DNA of 64,000 nucleotides from Natrinema salaciae (lineage in GTDB: Archaea > Halobacteriota > Halobacteria > Halobacteriales > Natrialbaceae), in contig NZ_FOFD01000002.1 of assembly GCF_900110865.1 (NCBI RefSeq), positions 554,835 to 618,834 on the forward strand, written 5' to 3'. The position numbers and the translations under genes are program-made. Below the pieces are notes generated by a model. The model was not told the DNA's origin and did not search any database. It saw nothing but the letters and a program-made list of their open reading frames with translations. Positions 33,358-42,067 of the stretch are shown here, piece after piece. How positions within the stretch are numbered: position 1 is the stretch's first letter; each line of letters begins with the position of its first letter.

Positions 33358-33382
33358 TTGAAAAGCGGTGCTATACAACGGT

Positions 33383-35182
33383 ATGAATTGGTCCTCTCCC
33401 CCATCCGACGACGGCGTTAGCAGGCGTTCGTTTCTGGCCGCCGGTGCGGCCAGTGCGGCGATCACGACGAGCGGTTGCGTCGATCGCGTGCAAAGCGTCG
33501 TCGACCAGACCGAAACCGAACAACTCTCGCTGTCCATCACGACGCTTCCGGCGGACGCGGACAGACAGAACGTCCGGATCGCCCGACAACTCGAGGAGAA
33601 CCTCGAGCGGGCCGGAATCGCCGTCTCGCTGGATACGCGATCGCGGTCGGAACTGCTCGAGGCAGTCCTGCTCGAGCACGACTTCGATTGCTACGTCGGC
33701 CTCCATCCGGCCGACTACGATCCCGACTTCCTCTACGAGGCCCTCCACTCCACGTTCGCGAGCGAAGCCGGTTGGCAGAACCCCTTCGGGTTCACCAACA
33801 TGTACCTCGACACCCTCCTGGAGAACCAGCGGCGATTCGACGGCGAGAAACGCAAGCAACACATCGAGTCCGTCCTGCAGGCACTGGCTCAGGAGAAGCC
33901 CTTCGAACCGATCTGCTTTCCCGACGAACACCGCGTCGCCGGGACCGATCGGTTCGACGGCTGGGACGAGGGCAGCCTCGCCACCCGCCACGGCTATCTC
34001 GGCCTCGAGCCGGCCACCGGTGTCGAGGAACTGCACGCCCTCGTGACCGACAGCCGGATGACGCGGAATCTCAATCCGCTGTCGGCGACGATTCGAAACC
34101 GCGGGACGACCGTGGATCTGATCTACGACTCCCTCGGGACCGAACACGAGGGTGAGATCCGACCGTGGCTCGCCCGGTCCTGGGAGTTCGCCGAAGCGCC
34201 GACGGATTCGGCGTCCGACTCACCGGACCGGGACGCGACGCGGACGGTGACGATCACGCTTCGAGAAGCGTGTCAGTTCCACGACGGCGAACCGGTAACC
34301 GCCGAGGACGTCGCCTTCACCTATCGGTTCCTCGAGGACACGTCGCTGGGGCGGGCGTCGATCCAGTCGCCGGCACCGCGGTATCAGGGCCATATCGGCG
34401 TGATCGACGAGATCACGGTCGAAGACGACTACGAGCTGACGATCACCGTAACCGGTGGCCGGGAGGCCGCCAGACGGGTATTTACCGTTCCGATACTGCC
34501 CGAACACGTGTGGCGCGACCGGGTCGACCAGCGCACTGCTGACGGCGAGGTAACCGCACAGCAAGGGCGGTGGGGCATCGTCACCGGAAGCAATATGCCG
34601 CCCGTGGGAAGCGGTCCGTTCCAGTTCGACAGTCGAAGCGAAGACGAGTCCCTCGTCTTCCAGCGCTTCGAGGATCACTTCACGCTCCGCGAGGACGTCG
34701 ACCTGCCCGAACCGACCGTCGATCGACTGCGGTTTACCGTCGATCCCGGGAGCATCTCGTCGATCGGTCGGGTCGAGGACGGCGGTGCGGACGTGACGGC
34801 GTCGATGCTCAACGCCCACTCGCTGGGTGCGATCCCCGACTCCGATGCCGTCCAAAAGCTGTCGTCGCCATCGCGGATGTTCTACCACATCGGGTTCAAC
34901 GTTCGCAACTCCCCCTTCAGTAACTCGCACTTCCGTCGGGCGGTCACGCAGCTGATCGACAAGAGCACGATCGTCGAGGACGTGTTCTTCGGGAACGCGA
35001 CGCCGGCTTCGACGCCGGTGACCGGCGAGTGGGTTCCCGACAGTCTGGAGTGGAACGGAGCGGATCCGGTGACGCCCTTCGCCGGCTCGGACGGGCAACT
35101 CAACGTCGAAGCCGCGAAGGCGGCGTTCGAACGAGCCGGGTTCCGGTACGATGATAACGGCAGACTTCTTGGGGGCTACTAG
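33383..35182 (+). CDS. Solute-binding lipoprotein with circularly permuted SBP_bac_5 fold
   Basis: A 599-residue exported lipoprotein (SRRSFLAAGA Tat motif, lipobox TTSGC at 28-32). Residues ~47-222 match what is normally the C-terminal lobe of a peptide-binding protein: SLSITTLPADADRQNVRIAR, then YDPDFLYEALHSTFASEAGW and EKPFEPICFPDEHRV. From ~222 the canonical start appears (TDSRMTRNLNPLSATIRNRG), then HDGEPVTAEDVAFTYRFLED (~299), NVRNSPFSNSHFRRAVTQLI (~505). The protein ends at AFERAGFRYDDNGRLLGGY, exactly where the first block should follow. No ABC permease or ATPase is nearby. ATG 33383 preferred over 33368. A PAP2 gene starts 5 nt downstream. Confidence 0.85.
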   Translation: MNWSSPPSDDGVSRRSFLAAGAASAAITTSGCVDRVQSVVDQTETEQLSLSITTLPADADRQNVRIARQLEENLERAGIAVSLDTRSRSELLEAVLLEHDFDCYVGLHPADYDPDFLYEALHSTFASEAGWQNPFGFTNMYLDTLLENQRRFDGEKRKQHIESVLQALAQEKPFEPICFPDEHRVAGTDRFDGWDEGSLATRHGYLGLEPATGVEELHALVTDSRMTRNLNPLSATIRNRGTTVDLIYDSLGTEHEGEIRPWLARSWEFAEAPTDSASDSPDRDATRTVTITLREACQFHDGEPVTAEDVAFTYRFLEDTSLGRASIQSPAPRYQGHIGVIDEITVEDDYELTITVTGGREAARRVFTVPILPEHVWRDRVDQRTADGEVTAQQGRWGIVTGSNMPPVGSGPFQFDSRSEDESLVFQRFEDHFTLREDVDLPEPTVDRLRFTVDPGSISSIGRVEDGGADVTASMLNAHSLGAIPDSDAVQKLSSPSRMFYHIGFNVRNSPFSNSHFRRAVTQLIDKSTIVEDVFFGNATPASTPVTGEWVPDSLEWNGADPVTPFAGSDGQLNVEAAKAAFERAGFRYDDNGRLLGGY

Positions 35183-35187
35183 AAGCG

Positions 35188-36051
35188 ATGCTCGCCGAGG
35201 TGCTGATCCAGCTCGCTATCGTTATCGGGATTCTCCTCCCGATATCGATAGCCGTCTTTATCGGTCGTAAGCGCCTCGTGCGGACGTACGCGGAGTGGCG
35301 GAGCCGGCTCAGAAAGACCGCCCCGATCATCGCCGTGTTGCTCGTCGTCCTCCTGATCAATCGCGTCGCCAGACAGCGGGCCCCGCGACTCTCTCGAGAG
35401 GTCGGGCTCCACCTCACCTCGCTGTTTTACAACGTCGAGGGGGAGTTCATCCTGATCTTCCAGTCGATCGCGTCTCCCGAGCTAAATGCGTACTTCACGT
35501 CGATCTACGTCTACGGCTACACGTTCCTGCTCATCTTTCCGGTCATCGCGTACTTCACGCTCTCCGATACGCGGATATTCCGCCGGTTGCTGGCGGCCTA
35601 CGCGCTCAACTACGCGATCGGGCTCGTCCTCTACATCTTCATCATCGCCTACGGGCCCCGAAACCTGATGCCCGCGGAGGTCGCGCCGACGATGCTGTAC
35701 GATACCAATCCGCAATATCAGTATCTCACCCGCGAGGTCAACAGCAACACCAACGTCTTTCCGTCGCTGCACACGTCGCTGTCGGCGACCGTCGCCGCGT
35801 TCGCGACGATGACGCGGTCGGAGTTCCCGAAGTGGTTCCCCGTCGCGGTCGTGCTTGCAGCCAGCGTCGCGATTTCGACGATGTACCTCGGAATCCACTG
35901 GGGGATCGACGTGACCGCCGGCCTGGTGCTCGCGGCCGCCTGTGTCGTCCTCTCGGACCACCTCATCGGCCGCTGGTCGATCTCGGAACTGTTCGAAGAT
36001 CACGTCCACCGGATCGAGGATCGGCTTCCCTGGCCGAAGCGAGACGACTGA
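35188..36051 (+). CDS. PAP2 / Aur1-like membrane phosphatase or phosphotransferase
   Basis: A 287-residue integral-membrane enzyme with about six helices. PSLHTSLS (residues 192-199) is the second PAP2 motif in the Aur1/IPC-synthase form, and STMYLGIHWGIDVTAG (~230-245) the third, with catalytic His and Asp. The first motif is degenerate (AYGPRNLMPAEV). Enzymes of this group remove or transfer phosphate head groups of lipids at the outer membrane face. It begins 5 nt after the SBP gene and is very likely in one operon. The role with the SBPs is unknown. Confidence 0.83.
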   Translation: MLAEVLIQLAIVIGILLPISIAVFIGRKRLVRTYAEWRSRLRKTAPIIAVLLVVLLINRVARQRAPRLSREVGLHLTSLFYNVEGEFILIFQSIASPELNAYFTSIYVYGYTFLLIFPVIAYFTLSDTRIFRRLLAAYALNYAIGLVLYIFIIAYGPRNLMPAEVAPTMLYDTNPQYQYLTREVNSNTNVFPSLHTSLSATVAAFATMTRSEFPKWFPVAVVLAASVAISTMYLGIHWGIDVTAGLVLAAACVVLSDHLIGRWSISELFEDHVHRIEDRLPWPKRDD

Positions 36052-36144
36052 CCGCCGACCGACGACGGGACCGGCCTCGGCCCGTCGACGGCCGCAATCG
36101 CGAGCCAGTGTCGAGACGCATCGATATTTCTACGGGCTCGAGCG

Positions 36145-36168
36145 GAGCACAATACTGTTATATCGTGG
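36145..36168 (+). promoter_or_regulatory. Conserved promoter block of the second permuted SBP gene
   Basis: The block starting GAGCACAATACTGTTATATC ends 26 nt before the ATG at 36195. About 19 of 24 positions match the block at 33334-33357. TTATATC is the likely TATA box. Confidence 0.65.
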
Positions 36169-36194
36169 CTCTGCAACTATGAGAAACGAACGAA

Positions 36195-37979
36195 ATGAAC
36201 GGGAGACGGGCCGCCCAGAACCGCAGGAGTCGCAAAAGTGACGACGGGACCCTGAACCGGCGGGCGATGCTGGCAGCGACGGCCGGGCTGACGGTCTCGA
36301 GCAGCGGTTGCCTTCGGCAGGTCCGGGAGATCGTCCTCCCGAACAACGTCAAGCAGCTCTCGCTGTCCATCACGACGCTTCCGGCGGACGCGGATCGGGA
36401 GAGCGTCCGGATCGCCCGTCAGCTCGAGGAGAACTTCAAGGCCGTGGGGATCGACGTCTCGCGCGACATCCGTTCGGAGATCGACTTCCGGCGGACGGTG
36501 CTCTACAACCACGATTTCGACATCTGGATCGGGCGTCATCCGGGCGGAACCGACCCCGACTACCTCTACGAGGCGCTGTACTCCCGATTCACCGACGAGT
36601 CTGGATGGCAGAACCCGTTCGGGTTCACCAACCAGAACGTCGACGAACTCCTGGAAGCGCAACGTCGCGCGGAAGGCGAGGAGCGTCGCAAGGCCGTCAC
36701 GGAGGTGCTCGAGGCGATCGCGTCCGAACAACCGCTCGTCCCGATCTGTGTCCCCGAAGAACACCGCATGGTCAACGCGGATCGGTTCGACGGCTGGGAA
36801 GACGGCCACCTCGCGACGCGACACGGCTATCTCGGCCTCGATCCGGACGTGGACGTCGAGTCGCTCGGCGTCGCACACACGGACGCCAGACCGACGGAGA
36901 ACCTCAATCCGATCGCGACCGACTACCGTGGTCGCGGAACGATCACCGACCTGTTGTACGATTCGCTGGGAACGCAGGACGGGACCGGCGCGATCCAGCC
37001 GTGGCTGGCGCGGTCCTGGGAGTGGGACGGGGACACGGCCGACGTTCGCCTCCGACCGGACTGCGAGTTCCACGACGGGGTCCCCGTGACCGCCGAAGAC
37101 GTCGCGTTCACGTATCGGTTCTTGCAGGACGTCTCGCTCGGGAACCACGAAGCGCCGTCGCCCGCGCCCCGCTATCGAGGGCAGATCGACGCCGTCGAGG
37201 CGGTCGACATTCGCCGGGACGATCGGCTCGAGATAACCGTCGATACGAACCAGACGGTCGGTGAGCGTGCGTTCCTCGTGCCCATCCTTCCGGCCCACGT
37301 CTGGCGCGAGCGGACGAACGACGTCATAGGGCCGGGCGGTCCCACGATCGCCCAGGGGACCACGCAGGCGATCGTCGCGGATAACATGCCGCCCGTCGGG
37401 AGCGGGCCCTTCCAGTTCGCAGACGCGACCGAAGGCGACCGACTCGAACTCGAACGCCACGAGATGCATTTCACGCGGCGAACGACCGACGAACTCCCCG
37501 AACCGACGATCGACGAGTGTACGTTCGCGATCCATCCGGGCAGCGCCGGTGCAGCGCGGGTCGTCGCGGACGGCAGCGCGGACGTGACGAGTCTGCCCCT
37601 CGATACGAACGTCCTCGGCGATATCGACGAGTCCGGCAGCGGTCAGTTGCGCGAGTCGACGTCGTGGACCTTCTACGTGCTCGGGTTCAACGCGCGCAAA
37701 GCGCCGTTTAACAACTACCGGTTCCGGCGACTGATCGCGCAGTTGATCGACAAACAGTGGCTGACAGACGAGATCTTCTACGGCCACGCTCGCCCCGTCG
37801 CGACCCCCGTTACCGAGGAGTGGGTGCCCGAGAGTCTCGAGTGGGACGACCACGACCCCAAAACGCCGTTTCTGGGCGCTGACGGGGATGTCGACGTCAG
37901 GGCGGCCCGCTCCGCGTTCGAAGACGCCGGCTTTCGGTACGACGATCGAGATCGACTCCGCGTCAGACACGAGAATTGA
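36195..37979 (+). CDS. Second circularly permuted SBP_bac_5 lipoprotein (paralogue)
   Basis: A 594-residue paralogue of the gene at 33383. The signal has NRRAMLAATAG and lipobox SSSGC (35-39). The same order is seen: SLSITTLPADADRESVRIAR first, GTDPDYLYEALYSRFTDESG, SEQPLVPICVPEEHRMV, then the canonical N-lobe start TDARPTENLNPIATDYRGRG (~230), HDGVPVTAEDVAFTYRFLQD, NARKAPFNNYRFRRLIAQLI, ending AFEDAGFRYDDRDRLRVRHEN. Over 30 nt around 36360 are identical to the first gene, so the duplication is fairly recent or converted. Ligand unknown. It has its own promoter, 143 bp after the PAP2 gene. Confidence 0.85.
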   Translation: MNGRRAAQNRRSRKSDDGTLNRRAMLAATAGLTVSSSGCLRQVREIVLPNNVKQLSLSITTLPADADRESVRIARQLEENFKAVGIDVSRDIRSEIDFRRTVLYNHDFDIWIGRHPGGTDPDYLYEALYSRFTDESGWQNPFGFTNQNVDELLEAQRRAEGEERRKAVTEVLEAIASEQPLVPICVPEEHRMVNADRFDGWEDGHLATRHGYLGLDPDVDVESLGVAHTDARPTENLNPIATDYRGRGTITDLLYDSLGTQDGTGAIQPWLARSWEWDGDTADVRLRPDCEFHDGVPVTAEDVAFTYRFLQDVSLGNHEAPSPAPRYRGQIDAVEAVDIRRDDRLEITVDTNQTVGERAFLVPILPAHVWRERTNDVIGPGGPTIAQGTTQAIVADNMPPVGSGPFQFADATEGDRLELERHEMHFTRRTTDELPEPTIDECTFAIHPGSAGAARVVADGSADVTSLPLDTNVLGDIDESGSGQLRESTSWTFYVLGFNARKAPFNNYRFRRLIAQLIDKQWLTDEIFYGHARPVATPVTEEWVPESLEWDDHDPKTPFLGADGDVDVRAARSAFEDAGFRYDDRDRLRVRHEN

Positions 37980-39931: not shown

Positions 39932-42067
39932 ATGACGGAACGACACACCGGCGGACGAGACGAGTCGACGACGAACGATCGGCGGACGTTCCTCCAGGCG
40001 ATCGGGCTGGTCGCGGCGTCGTCCGGCCTCGTCGGAACCGCGAGCGCGGACCCCGGACGGGACGGTATCGACGGCTCGAACGATGGCGGGGACGGCGGCG
40101 GTCTCGTCCCGCTCACGCACGGCGTCGCGGTGGGCGACGTTACCGCGACCACCGCGACCGTCTGGGCACGCGCGGACCGCGACGCGACCGTTCACGTCGC
40201 GTACAGCCACGACCAGGGGTTCGACGGCGTCGGCTACGATCGGACGGCGGTCGACGTCGAGACCGATCACACCGGCCACGTCAGACTCGAGGAACTCGAG
40301 TCCGGGACCCGGTATCGCTATCACGTCTGGGCCACGCGGGCGGCGGAGACGTACCGGCCCCTGGACGACCGAGACGACGGACGCGGCCCCCGCGGCGAAG
40401 CGGAACGCGGCGACCACAGCGGCGACGAGTCGATCGAAGCGTTGCTTCCCGATGCCGTCGAAAGCGGGACGTTCGTCACAGCGCCGGCCCCCGACGAGGA
40501 GGAGCGCGTCACGTTCGCCTGGAGCGGCGACACGTGGGGGTACGGGGACGACCCCGTCGAGCCGCCGTTCCCCGGACTACAGACGATCGCACAGCGAGAA
40601 CCGGACTTCTTCCTCTATCACGGGGACACGATCTACGCCGACGCGCAGACGCCGGCCGGGAAGATCACCGCGAACACCCCTCTCGACGAGGCCCTCGAGA
40701 TCTACCGGGACAAGTACAAGGAGATGCGCGATCCCCCCGAAGAGATCGCGGAACGGACGAATCTACAGGAACTGCTCGAGACGACGTCGGTGTACACCGT
40801 CTGGGACGACCACGAGGTCATCAACAACTTCGCCGGGCCGATCGAGCCGTTGATGCCCGAGGGGCGGCGGGCCTTCCGCGAGTACTGGCCGCTCGACCGG
40901 GACGACGAGGCCGAACCCGGCGAGTCGAACCGATTCTACGATTCGTTCCGCTGGGGGAAACACGTCGAACTGTTCGTCATCGACACCCGCCAGTATCGCG
41001 ATCCGAACGTCGAACTCGGCACGAAGACGCTGCTGGGTCGCGAGCAACTCGAGTGGCTGAAGGGCGCGCTCGCCGACTCCGACGCGACGTGGAAGCTGCT
41101 CGCCTCGCCGGCCCCGCTGGGGTATCCGTCCGACTCGTGGGCGACCCCTGCGGATCGAACCGGCTACGAGGGGGAACTGCTCGAGCTCGTCGAATACGTC
41201 CGGACGGAGTCGGTCTCGAACCTCGTCGTCGTCGCCGGCGACGTCCACAAGTCGGTCGTAGGAGGGTACGATCCCGACGACGACGGTACGTTCGAGTTCG
41301 TCGAAGCCATCGCCGGGCCGCTCGGCGCGCCGGCGGGCGAACCCGACGACCTCTATCCGGCCCTCAATCCGACCGAGTTCTTCGCGAAGGGCGAGTACAC
41401 CAACTTCGGCACCGTCGACGTCGACGAATCGGGCGAAACGCTGACGGTCGGTATCTACGACGAGCGGGGTACCGAGCAGTTCACCAAGACGTTCCACGCC
41501 GACGAGATCAACGCGGGGGACGGCCCGGAACCGCCGAGTCGCATCGAGAGCACGTTCGACGAGGACGGCGACGGCTGGCTCATCTCGCAAAACGGCGGAA
41601 GCAACCGTCCCGTCTACCGTGCGACTGGCGGCAATCCCGGCGGCCACGTCAGCGACGAGGAGAATCAGGGTGGTGTCGCCTGGTACTACCAGGCCCCGTT
41701 CAAGTTCCTCGGCGACCGCGAAGCGTTCTACGGCGGCACCCTCTCCTTCGATCTTCGACAGGCGCGGAGCGACCGGCAGTTCGACGCCGACCCCGTCGAG
41801 GGAGGAGACGTCCTGCTCGCGAGCGGTGACACGAAACTCGTCTACGAGTTTCGCGGCCCCGAGAGCACGCCGGGCGAATCGTGGACGGCCTTCGAGGTGC
41901 CGCTGTCGGCCGACGCCACCTGGATCGATCTGACGAGTCGAGACCCGATCGCGACCGAAGCGACGTTCCGCGCCGTCCTCGCCGAGCTGGACACCCTCCG
42001 AATCCGTGGCGAGTACCGGGCGGGCGACGACACGAGCTACCTCGACAACGTCGTCCTCTCCCGGTAG
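39932..42067 (+). CDS. PhoD-type alkaline phosphatase fused to a laminin-B (laminin IV) domain
   Basis: A 711-residue secreted phosphodiesterase/phosphatase. Signal: NDRRTFLQAIGLVAASSGLV (Tat). Residues ~58-125 are the PhoD N-terminal beta domain (LTHGVAVGDVTATTATVWAR). The metal core has FAWSGDTWGY (~195), LYHGDTIYAD (~227), VWDDHEVINNF (~289) and VVVAGDVHKS (~432). From ~545 the sequence EDGDGWLISQNGGSNRPVYR, APFKFLGDREAFYGGTLSFD and LDTLRIRGEYRAGDDTSYLD matches the laminin IV/B domain, which is not part of ordinary PhoD. The fusion may anchor the enzyme to surface polymers. It probably helps phosphate scavenging. Confidence 0.87.
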   Translation: MTERHTGGRDESTTNDRRTFLQAIGLVAASSGLVGTASADPGRDGIDGSNDGGDGGGLVPLTHGVAVGDVTATTATVWARADRDATVHVAYSHDQGFDGVGYDRTAVDVETDHTGHVRLEELESGTRYRYHVWATRAAETYRPLDDRDDGRGPRGEAERGDHSGDESIEALLPDAVESGTFVTAPAPDEEERVTFAWSGDTWGYGDDPVEPPFPGLQTIAQREPDFFLYHGDTIYADAQTPAGKITANTPLDEALEIYRDKYKEMRDPPEEIAERTNLQELLETTSVYTVWDDHEVINNFAGPIEPLMPEGRRAFREYWPLDRDDEAEPGESNRFYDSFRWGKHVELFVIDTRQYRDPNVELGTKTLLGREQLEWLKGALADSDATWKLLASPAPLGYPSDSWATPADRTGYEGELLELVEYVRTESVSNLVVVAGDVHKSVVGGYDPDDDGTFEFVEAIAGPLGAPAGEPDDLYPALNPTEFFAKGEYTNFGTVDVDESGETLTVGIYDERGTEQFTKTFHADEINAGDGPEPPSRIESTFDEDGDGWLISQNGGSNRPVYRATGGNPGGHVSDEENQGGVAWYYQAPFKFLGDREAFYGGTLSFDLRQARSDRQFDADPVEGGDVLLASGDTKLVYEFRGPESTPGESWTAFEVPLSADATWIDLTSRDPIATEATFRAVLAELDTLRIRGEYRAGDDTSYLDNVVLSR

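Follow-up and report, generated by a model that had tools for sequence, protein, structure and literature searches.

Circularly permuted SBP_bac_5 lipoproteins encoded beside a PAP2-superfamily gene in Natrinema salaciae and its relatives

The window analyzed here, 64,000 bp of the Natrinema salaciae genome (contig NZ_FOFD01000002.1, positions 554,835 to 618,834 of the forward strand), carries genes for two paralogous lipoproteins, P0001 and P0002, that are almost certainly complete solute-binding proteins (SBPs) of the SBP_bac_5 (cluster C) family in circularly permuted order. The P0001 gene (bp 33368–35182 of the window, + strand) encodes 604 amino acids, with an alternative ATG start at 33383, and the P0002 gene (36195–37979, + strand) encodes 594 amino acids; the two proteins are 53% identical. 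Between them, beginning 5 nt past P0001, lies a gene for a putative PAP2-superfamily membrane enzyme (35188–36051, + strand), which we discuss below as a likely partner. Among named relatives, those closest to the locus are Natrinema records. A Pfam profile search found no PF00528 or PF08352 genes in the window, and the permease and ATPase genes of an Opp/Dpp-type ATP-binding cassette (ABC) importer are absent from it.

Block order in P0001 and P0002

Both proteins begin with a twin-arginine translocation (Tat)-like signal containing the RR pair, followed by a lipobox, as read directly from the sequence: TSGC37 in P0001 (signal and lipobox through Cys37, 33368–33478, + strand) and SSGC39 in P0002. 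The Pfam TAT_signal match in P0001 is weak and falls under the cut-off; the RR pair and a ..GC lipobox are present in the listed homologs of the same family (class A, defined below). After the lipobox each chain runs through SLSITTLPADADR...DPDFLYEAL and then the canonical early block to a C-terminal end at AGFRYDD. A first-pass annotation, made from the DNA letters, had taken this to be the normally late block lying directly behind the lipobox, with the early block second and the chain ending where the late block would start. Readings of both open reading frames (ORFs) and the searches described here bear this out.

Profile PF00496 matches P0001 and P0002 with 171.2 and 152.2 bits (curated cut-off 32.4), in each case in two stretches whose order is swapped. 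In P0001 profile positions 1–284 lie at residues 263–598, and in P0002 positions 287–363 lie at residues ~48–131 and positions 2–286 at ~267–588. A canonical haloarchaeal hidden Markov model (HMM; 532 positions, numbered h, built from 50 collinear SBPs) behaves in the same way, with P0001 residues 38–190 corresponding to h368–518 (9e-15) and 227–593 to h59–381 (5e-50), and P0002 residues 54–197 to h384–523 (5e-15) and 231–581 to h61–381 (5e-47). The two matches are complementary and no part of the fold is missing. The late block of P0001 thus occupies residues 45–198 (33500–33961) and its early block residues 226–604 (34043–35179); in P0002 the late block occupies residues 54–205 (36354–36809; hmm 368–516) and the early block residues 229–590 (36879–37964; PF00496 2–283 at 267–585), all on the + strand.

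Solved structures give the same picture. Bacillus subtilis AppA (1xoc) aligns in two blocks of swapped order, chain residues 42–318 with residues 254–563 of the query and chain residues 353–501 with residues 45–198; the late block was matched to solved structures both by phmmer and by profile, and a profile of 60 relatives aligns in the same swapped order with CtaP and Clostridioides difficile AppA. When mature P0001 was rotated in silico its best single alignment rose from 165.5 to 222.5 bits, as one collinear match, and that of mature P0002 rose likewise from 155.5 to 215.7 bits; three canonical controls from the same genome gained at most 1.7 bits. An AlphaFold model of the permuted SBP is confident over both blocks, with a mean predicted local distance difference test score (pLDDT) of 90.7 and a predicted template modeling score (pTM) of 0.89. 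Foldseek, which aligns in sequence order, matches this model to cluster C proteins exclusively, over ~400 columns with a template modeling score (TM) of ~0.45; so low a score is expected if the protein is permuted, because only part of such a chain can be aligned in order.

These results bear on two other ways of explaining the chains. They could be unpermuted proteins in which an unrelated N-terminal domain precedes a truncated SBP_bac_5 domain, as might be suggested by the best single Pfam stretch, which spans profile positions 1–284 and no more. We consider this very improbable: the N-terminal block is recognizable as the late lobe (9e-15 in P0001, 5e-15 in P0002) and also matches solved structures, rotation adds 57–60 bits, the two matches are complementary, and no collinear full-length match of the chains as encoded was found by Pfam, the canonical HMM, or the rotation test. 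An assembly or gene-fusion artefact that put the late block of an upstream gene before the early block of a downstream gene is less credible still, and all that speaks for it is that such proteins are rarely met with in published work. Both paralogs are single unbroken ORFs with their own Tat signal and lipobox, and, as the first-pass annotation had argued from the two paralogs, assembly error is excluded, since the swapped order is shared by orthologs from dozens of genera across Halobacteria in independent assemblies that include complete chromosomes. The orthologs are collinear with the window protein over residues ~17–601, and PF00496 matches every one of the 60 class A members that were aligned.

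The cut lies between helix AAKAAFERAGF and the strand that follows it, ~160 residues ahead of the canonical C-terminus. By the domain limits of OppA this position is probably in lobe II; the new chain ends would then lie in the second lobe, and the lipid anchor would therefore shift from lobe I to lobe II.

Permuted relatives in Halobacteria and Alphaproteobacteria

P0001 and P0002 are not the only such proteins in N. salaciae. Of the ten SBP_bac_5 genes in its genome, six are canonical and four are permuted, the latter with three different breakpoints. The other two, P0003 (G000:C7:23752-25581; L119:7753-9582) and P0004 (G000:C7:32491-34140; L119:16492-18141), are also lipoproteins, with breakpoints at h~466 and h~360, and each heads a complete permease-permease-ATPase-ATPase (Opp/Dpp) operon; permuted SBPs are therefore compatible with ordinary importers. 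They resemble the window pair in being permuted SBP_bac_5 proteins and differ from it in their breakpoints and in having their own ABC operons. One canonical SBP_bac_5 gene of this genome (L122; G000:C2:788622-789686) is an orphan, in that its surroundings on the contig contain neither a permease nor an ATPase match.

In a survey of 22 evenly drawn Halobacteria genomes and that of the window, 62 SBP_bac_5 ORFs are canonical, 35 are permuted (35 of the 97 classifiable), and two are unclear. When mapped onto a tree built from 106 de-permuted sequences, the permuted/canonical label needs eight changes, and it also needs eight when the early block, which is collinear in all of them and requires no rotation, is used alone; such label changes do not distinguish gain from loss. 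The approximately unbiased (AU) test rejects one common permutation event behind all of the permuted SBPs (p 1e-31 with rotated sequences, 5e-38 with the early block alone). There are at least four breakpoint zones, and the different breakpoints argue for separate permutation events; permuted groups in Halobacteria number at least six. Some have close canonical relatives: L141–L143 are canonical and 52–56% identical to P0003, and the P0004 group has a canonical sister in L169. One Halobacteria genome (L249 and L253, G039:C1 ~2361000-2367000) has two tandem SBP_bac_5 domains in one reading frame of >1,100 amino acids; a tandem fused duplicate of this type is a possible intermediate that could yield a permuted protein when trimmed at both ends.

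Among 75 PF00496 matches from Halobacteriota other than Halobacteriales, none is permuted within the range covered by the Pfam profile, a check that later breakpoints would escape. One archaeon not belonging to Halobacteria (G085, Pfam range 11–284) was a candidate and proved on checking to be canonical. Our first conclusion that permutation is confined to Halobacteria was overturned by matches on alphaproteobacterial plasmids. Five permuted SBP_bac_5 proteins (L270–L274) are encoded there, in Nitratireductor, Microvirga, Maritalea, Roseomonas, and Ketogulonicigenium. Rotation gains them 38–70 bits (0.4 bits for a canonical Rhizobium control), and their breakpoint (h382–399) is that of the window family and of the haloarchaeal clade, A381, to which it belongs. 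They group with the A381 clade in phylogeny, where the tree that holds them together is favored by 28 log units (p-AU 0.857). Since they fall with the main haloarchaeal group, permutation at the shared breakpoint probably arose once and then crossed between the domains. Four of the five are in annotated permease/ATPase ABC operons, and the Microvirga protein comes from a record without annotation; several of the loci adjoin hydantoinase, racemase, or M28 peptidase genes as well as ABC genes. These proteins thus share the breakpoint of the window pair and differ from it in their ABC operons and in carrying signal peptides with no evident lipobox, as judged by reading the sequences. The absence of an evident lipobox weakens the idea that the purpose of the permutation was to relocate the lipid anchor.

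Neither these bacterial members and the many apparently independent permutations in Halobacteria, nor the two other breakpoints and the PAP2 gene in the same genome, had been noticed in the first-pass annotation.

The adjacent PAP2-superfamily gene

The SBP family of the window, here called class A, forms one branch within the main haloarchaeal group that carries the shared breakpoint, and it differs from other permuted SBPs in its neighbor. In a scan of permuted loci 39 of 40 outside class A adjoin a permease gene, and the remaining one has neither a permease nor a PAP2 gene in view; all 16 class A loci in the same scan have a PAP2 neighbor. The sister groups with the class A breakpoint are ABC-linked. 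Among class A loci of named genomes the PAP2 gene lies directly downstream on the same strand in 76 of 78. Spacing between the two genes, over 112 pairs, is –1 nt in 44, –4 nt in 22, and +5 nt in 26, and these short overlaps and spacings suggest that translation of the two is coupled. Among 79 evenly drawn genomes, 61 of 70 class A SBPs are followed immediately by the PAP2 gene, and eight of the nine others belong to SBP-PAP2-SBP arrays like that of the window, in which they are the SBP that lacks a partner. Across 94 pairs, distances in the SBP tree correlate with those in the PAP2 tree (r = 0.90). Among 18 tandem double units, 153 of 153 quartets are congruent between the two genes; the pair therefore duplicated as one unit. 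From comparison of neighborhoods, the second PAP2 gene appears to have been lost in Natrinema. Other neighbors are less constant, in that MscS and YhbY genes are common to near relatives only and the neighbors differ outside Natrialbaceae. A solo paralog of the PAP2 partner (G000:C3:343978-344754; 274 bits) lies elsewhere in the N. salaciae genome without an adjacent permuted SBP, and solo copies occur in other genomes too. Further along the window (39932–42067) a PhoD-like phosphatase gene encodes a C-terminal Laminin_B domain (PF00052, 3e-15) that looks unusual for an archaeon.

The product of the PAP2 gene (287 amino acids) matches PF14378 with 56 bits (cut-off 27) and PF01569 with 45 bits (cut-off 27.2), and its AlphaFold model has a pLDDT of 90.4. 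By Foldseek it is nearest to Aur1/inositol phosphorylceramide synthase (E 4.7e-4, TM ~0.5) and then to LpxE and PgpB (E 4.7e-4 to 1e-2 over the set), with ~17–18% identity to these structures over the aligned part; a sequence-profile comparison places PgpB first (1e-6) and gives 0.008 for AUR1. We describe it as PAP2_3, Aur1/PgpB-like. Its two active-site motifs are PSLHTS (His195; 35761–35778, + strand) and TMYLGIHWGID (His237 and Asp241; 35878–35910, + strand). In 43 PAP2 partners PSLH and Ser197 are invariant and Thr196 is at least 90% conserved; Thr231, Met232, Leu234, His237, Trp238, and Asp241 are also invariant (TM.L..HW..D), so that the catalytic C2/C3 residues His195, His237, and Asp241 are kept in all. 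PSLH and H(Y/W)..D follow the pattern of the Aur1-type PAP2_3 proteins. The C1 motif KX6RP is not found, an invariant GPRN standing in its place in the 43 partners, and the Arg of C3 is replaced by Thr231. The protein thus has the fold and the C2/C3 His, His, and Asp of Aur1, LpxE, and PgpB, and differs from them in being archaeal, in being encoded beside a binding protein, and in lacking C1 KX6RP and the C3 Arg. Since PSLH, TM.L..HW..D, and GPRN are invariant in the partners, the enzyme is probably active, and by homology its active site would face outwards, on the side of the lipoprotein.

Proposed roles and their alternatives

We think it likely that class A represents a permuted, Tat-exported lipoprotein that exchanged its importer for a PAP2 partner. 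The original N- and C-termini would have become connected through a short linker, with new ends arising in the second lobe, which would leave the lipid anchor attached to the other lobe. Class A would descend from permuted SBPs that served ordinary Opp/Dpp importers, since the permuted loci outside class A and the sister groups with the same breakpoint adjoin permeases, and it would then have swapped the ABC importer for the PAP2-superfamily membrane enzyme of its own operon (35188–36051). In the account we favor, the SBP would close on an extracellular ligand and then either present the ligand to the presumably outward-facing PAP2 site, or switch on or gate that site, and the reaction may be either a dephosphorylation or a head-group transfer between lipids. 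That SBP and PAP2 are functional partners seems quite probable, and the partnership may be physical; any one specific form of it has less than even odds. The full proposal, a two-gene envelope system that arose by partner exchange, in which a tethered permuted SBP controls or feeds an Aur1/PAP2-type enzyme, in an archaeal class where SBP_bac_5 was permuted several times independently, is in our estimation evenly balanced between right and wrong.

Several points weigh against this account. The non-standard C1 and the C3 Arg replacement make the chemistry of the PAP2 protein uncertain; the same features occur in part of the PAP2_3/Aur1 branch. Co-occurrence in the 79 genomes supports the pairing, with class A and a strong PAP2 match present together in 49 and both missing from the other 30, but these are raw counts that ignore shared ancestry. 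One genome (G058) has a class A SBP with its PAP2 gene located elsewhere, and in Natrinema genomes there is a second SBP that lacks a PAP2 gene of its own. Adjacency of the two genes can reflect co-regulation rather than contact, and the window SBPs could still supply an importer encoded elsewhere. Put together, the last two points amount to a different explanation, in which P0001 and P0002 are permuted orphan SBPs that dock to a distant ABC importer and PAP2 is a co-transcribed neighbor that shares, for example, a phosphate response. Related permuted SBPs do serve importers, the SBP_bac_5 fold is kept in the predicted model, and the PhoD-like phosphatase gene is also nearby, all of which would fit. 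We nevertheless regard this explanation as rather unlikely, as the PAP2 association is near-exclusive, overlapping, co-duplicated, and tree-congruent over many genera, whereas other neighbors change outside Natrialbaceae, and all seven oligo_HPY (Opp/Dpp-type) ATPase pairs of the genome have an SBP of their own.

Compared with the known cluster C SBPs (OppA, DppA, AppA, and NikA), the window pair has both blocks, the motifs FHDG..TAEDV, GSGPF, and DPD, and lipoprotein export in common with them; its blocks are permuted, and PAP2 takes the place of nearby ABC genes. Permutation of an SBP is not unprecedented, since the Treponema glucose-binding lipoprotein TpMglB-2 (Tp0684) is a natural circularly permuted SBP, designated "Type Ic / Cluster Bc", whose relatives, as its authors note, are probably tethered in most of their organisms (PMC4990184). 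TpMglB-2 differs in its cluster B sugar-binding fold, its breakpoint, and the phyla in which it occurs, and its permutation is not homologous to that of the window proteins, whose structural and profile matches are all to cluster C and which therefore do not belong to Cluster Bc. Beyond TpMglB-2, nothing relevant to permuted cluster C SBPs (none of which was known to the first-pass annotation either), SBP-PAP2 pairs, or archaeal Aur1 was found in the open papers searched. Annotated records label the permuted proteins as plain ABC transporter substrate-binding proteins, and standard annotation thus conceals the permutation.

Circular permutation usually counts as an accident that proteins seldom undergo in evolution. 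In this archaeal class about one-third of a large receptor family is permuted, and the presence of at least four breakpoint zones together with close canonical sisters makes the route and the consequences of permutation directly testable. The SBP-PAP2 pair suggests in addition that the receptor of an importer can be put to new use in controlling a membrane enzyme that modifies lipids or releases phosphate.

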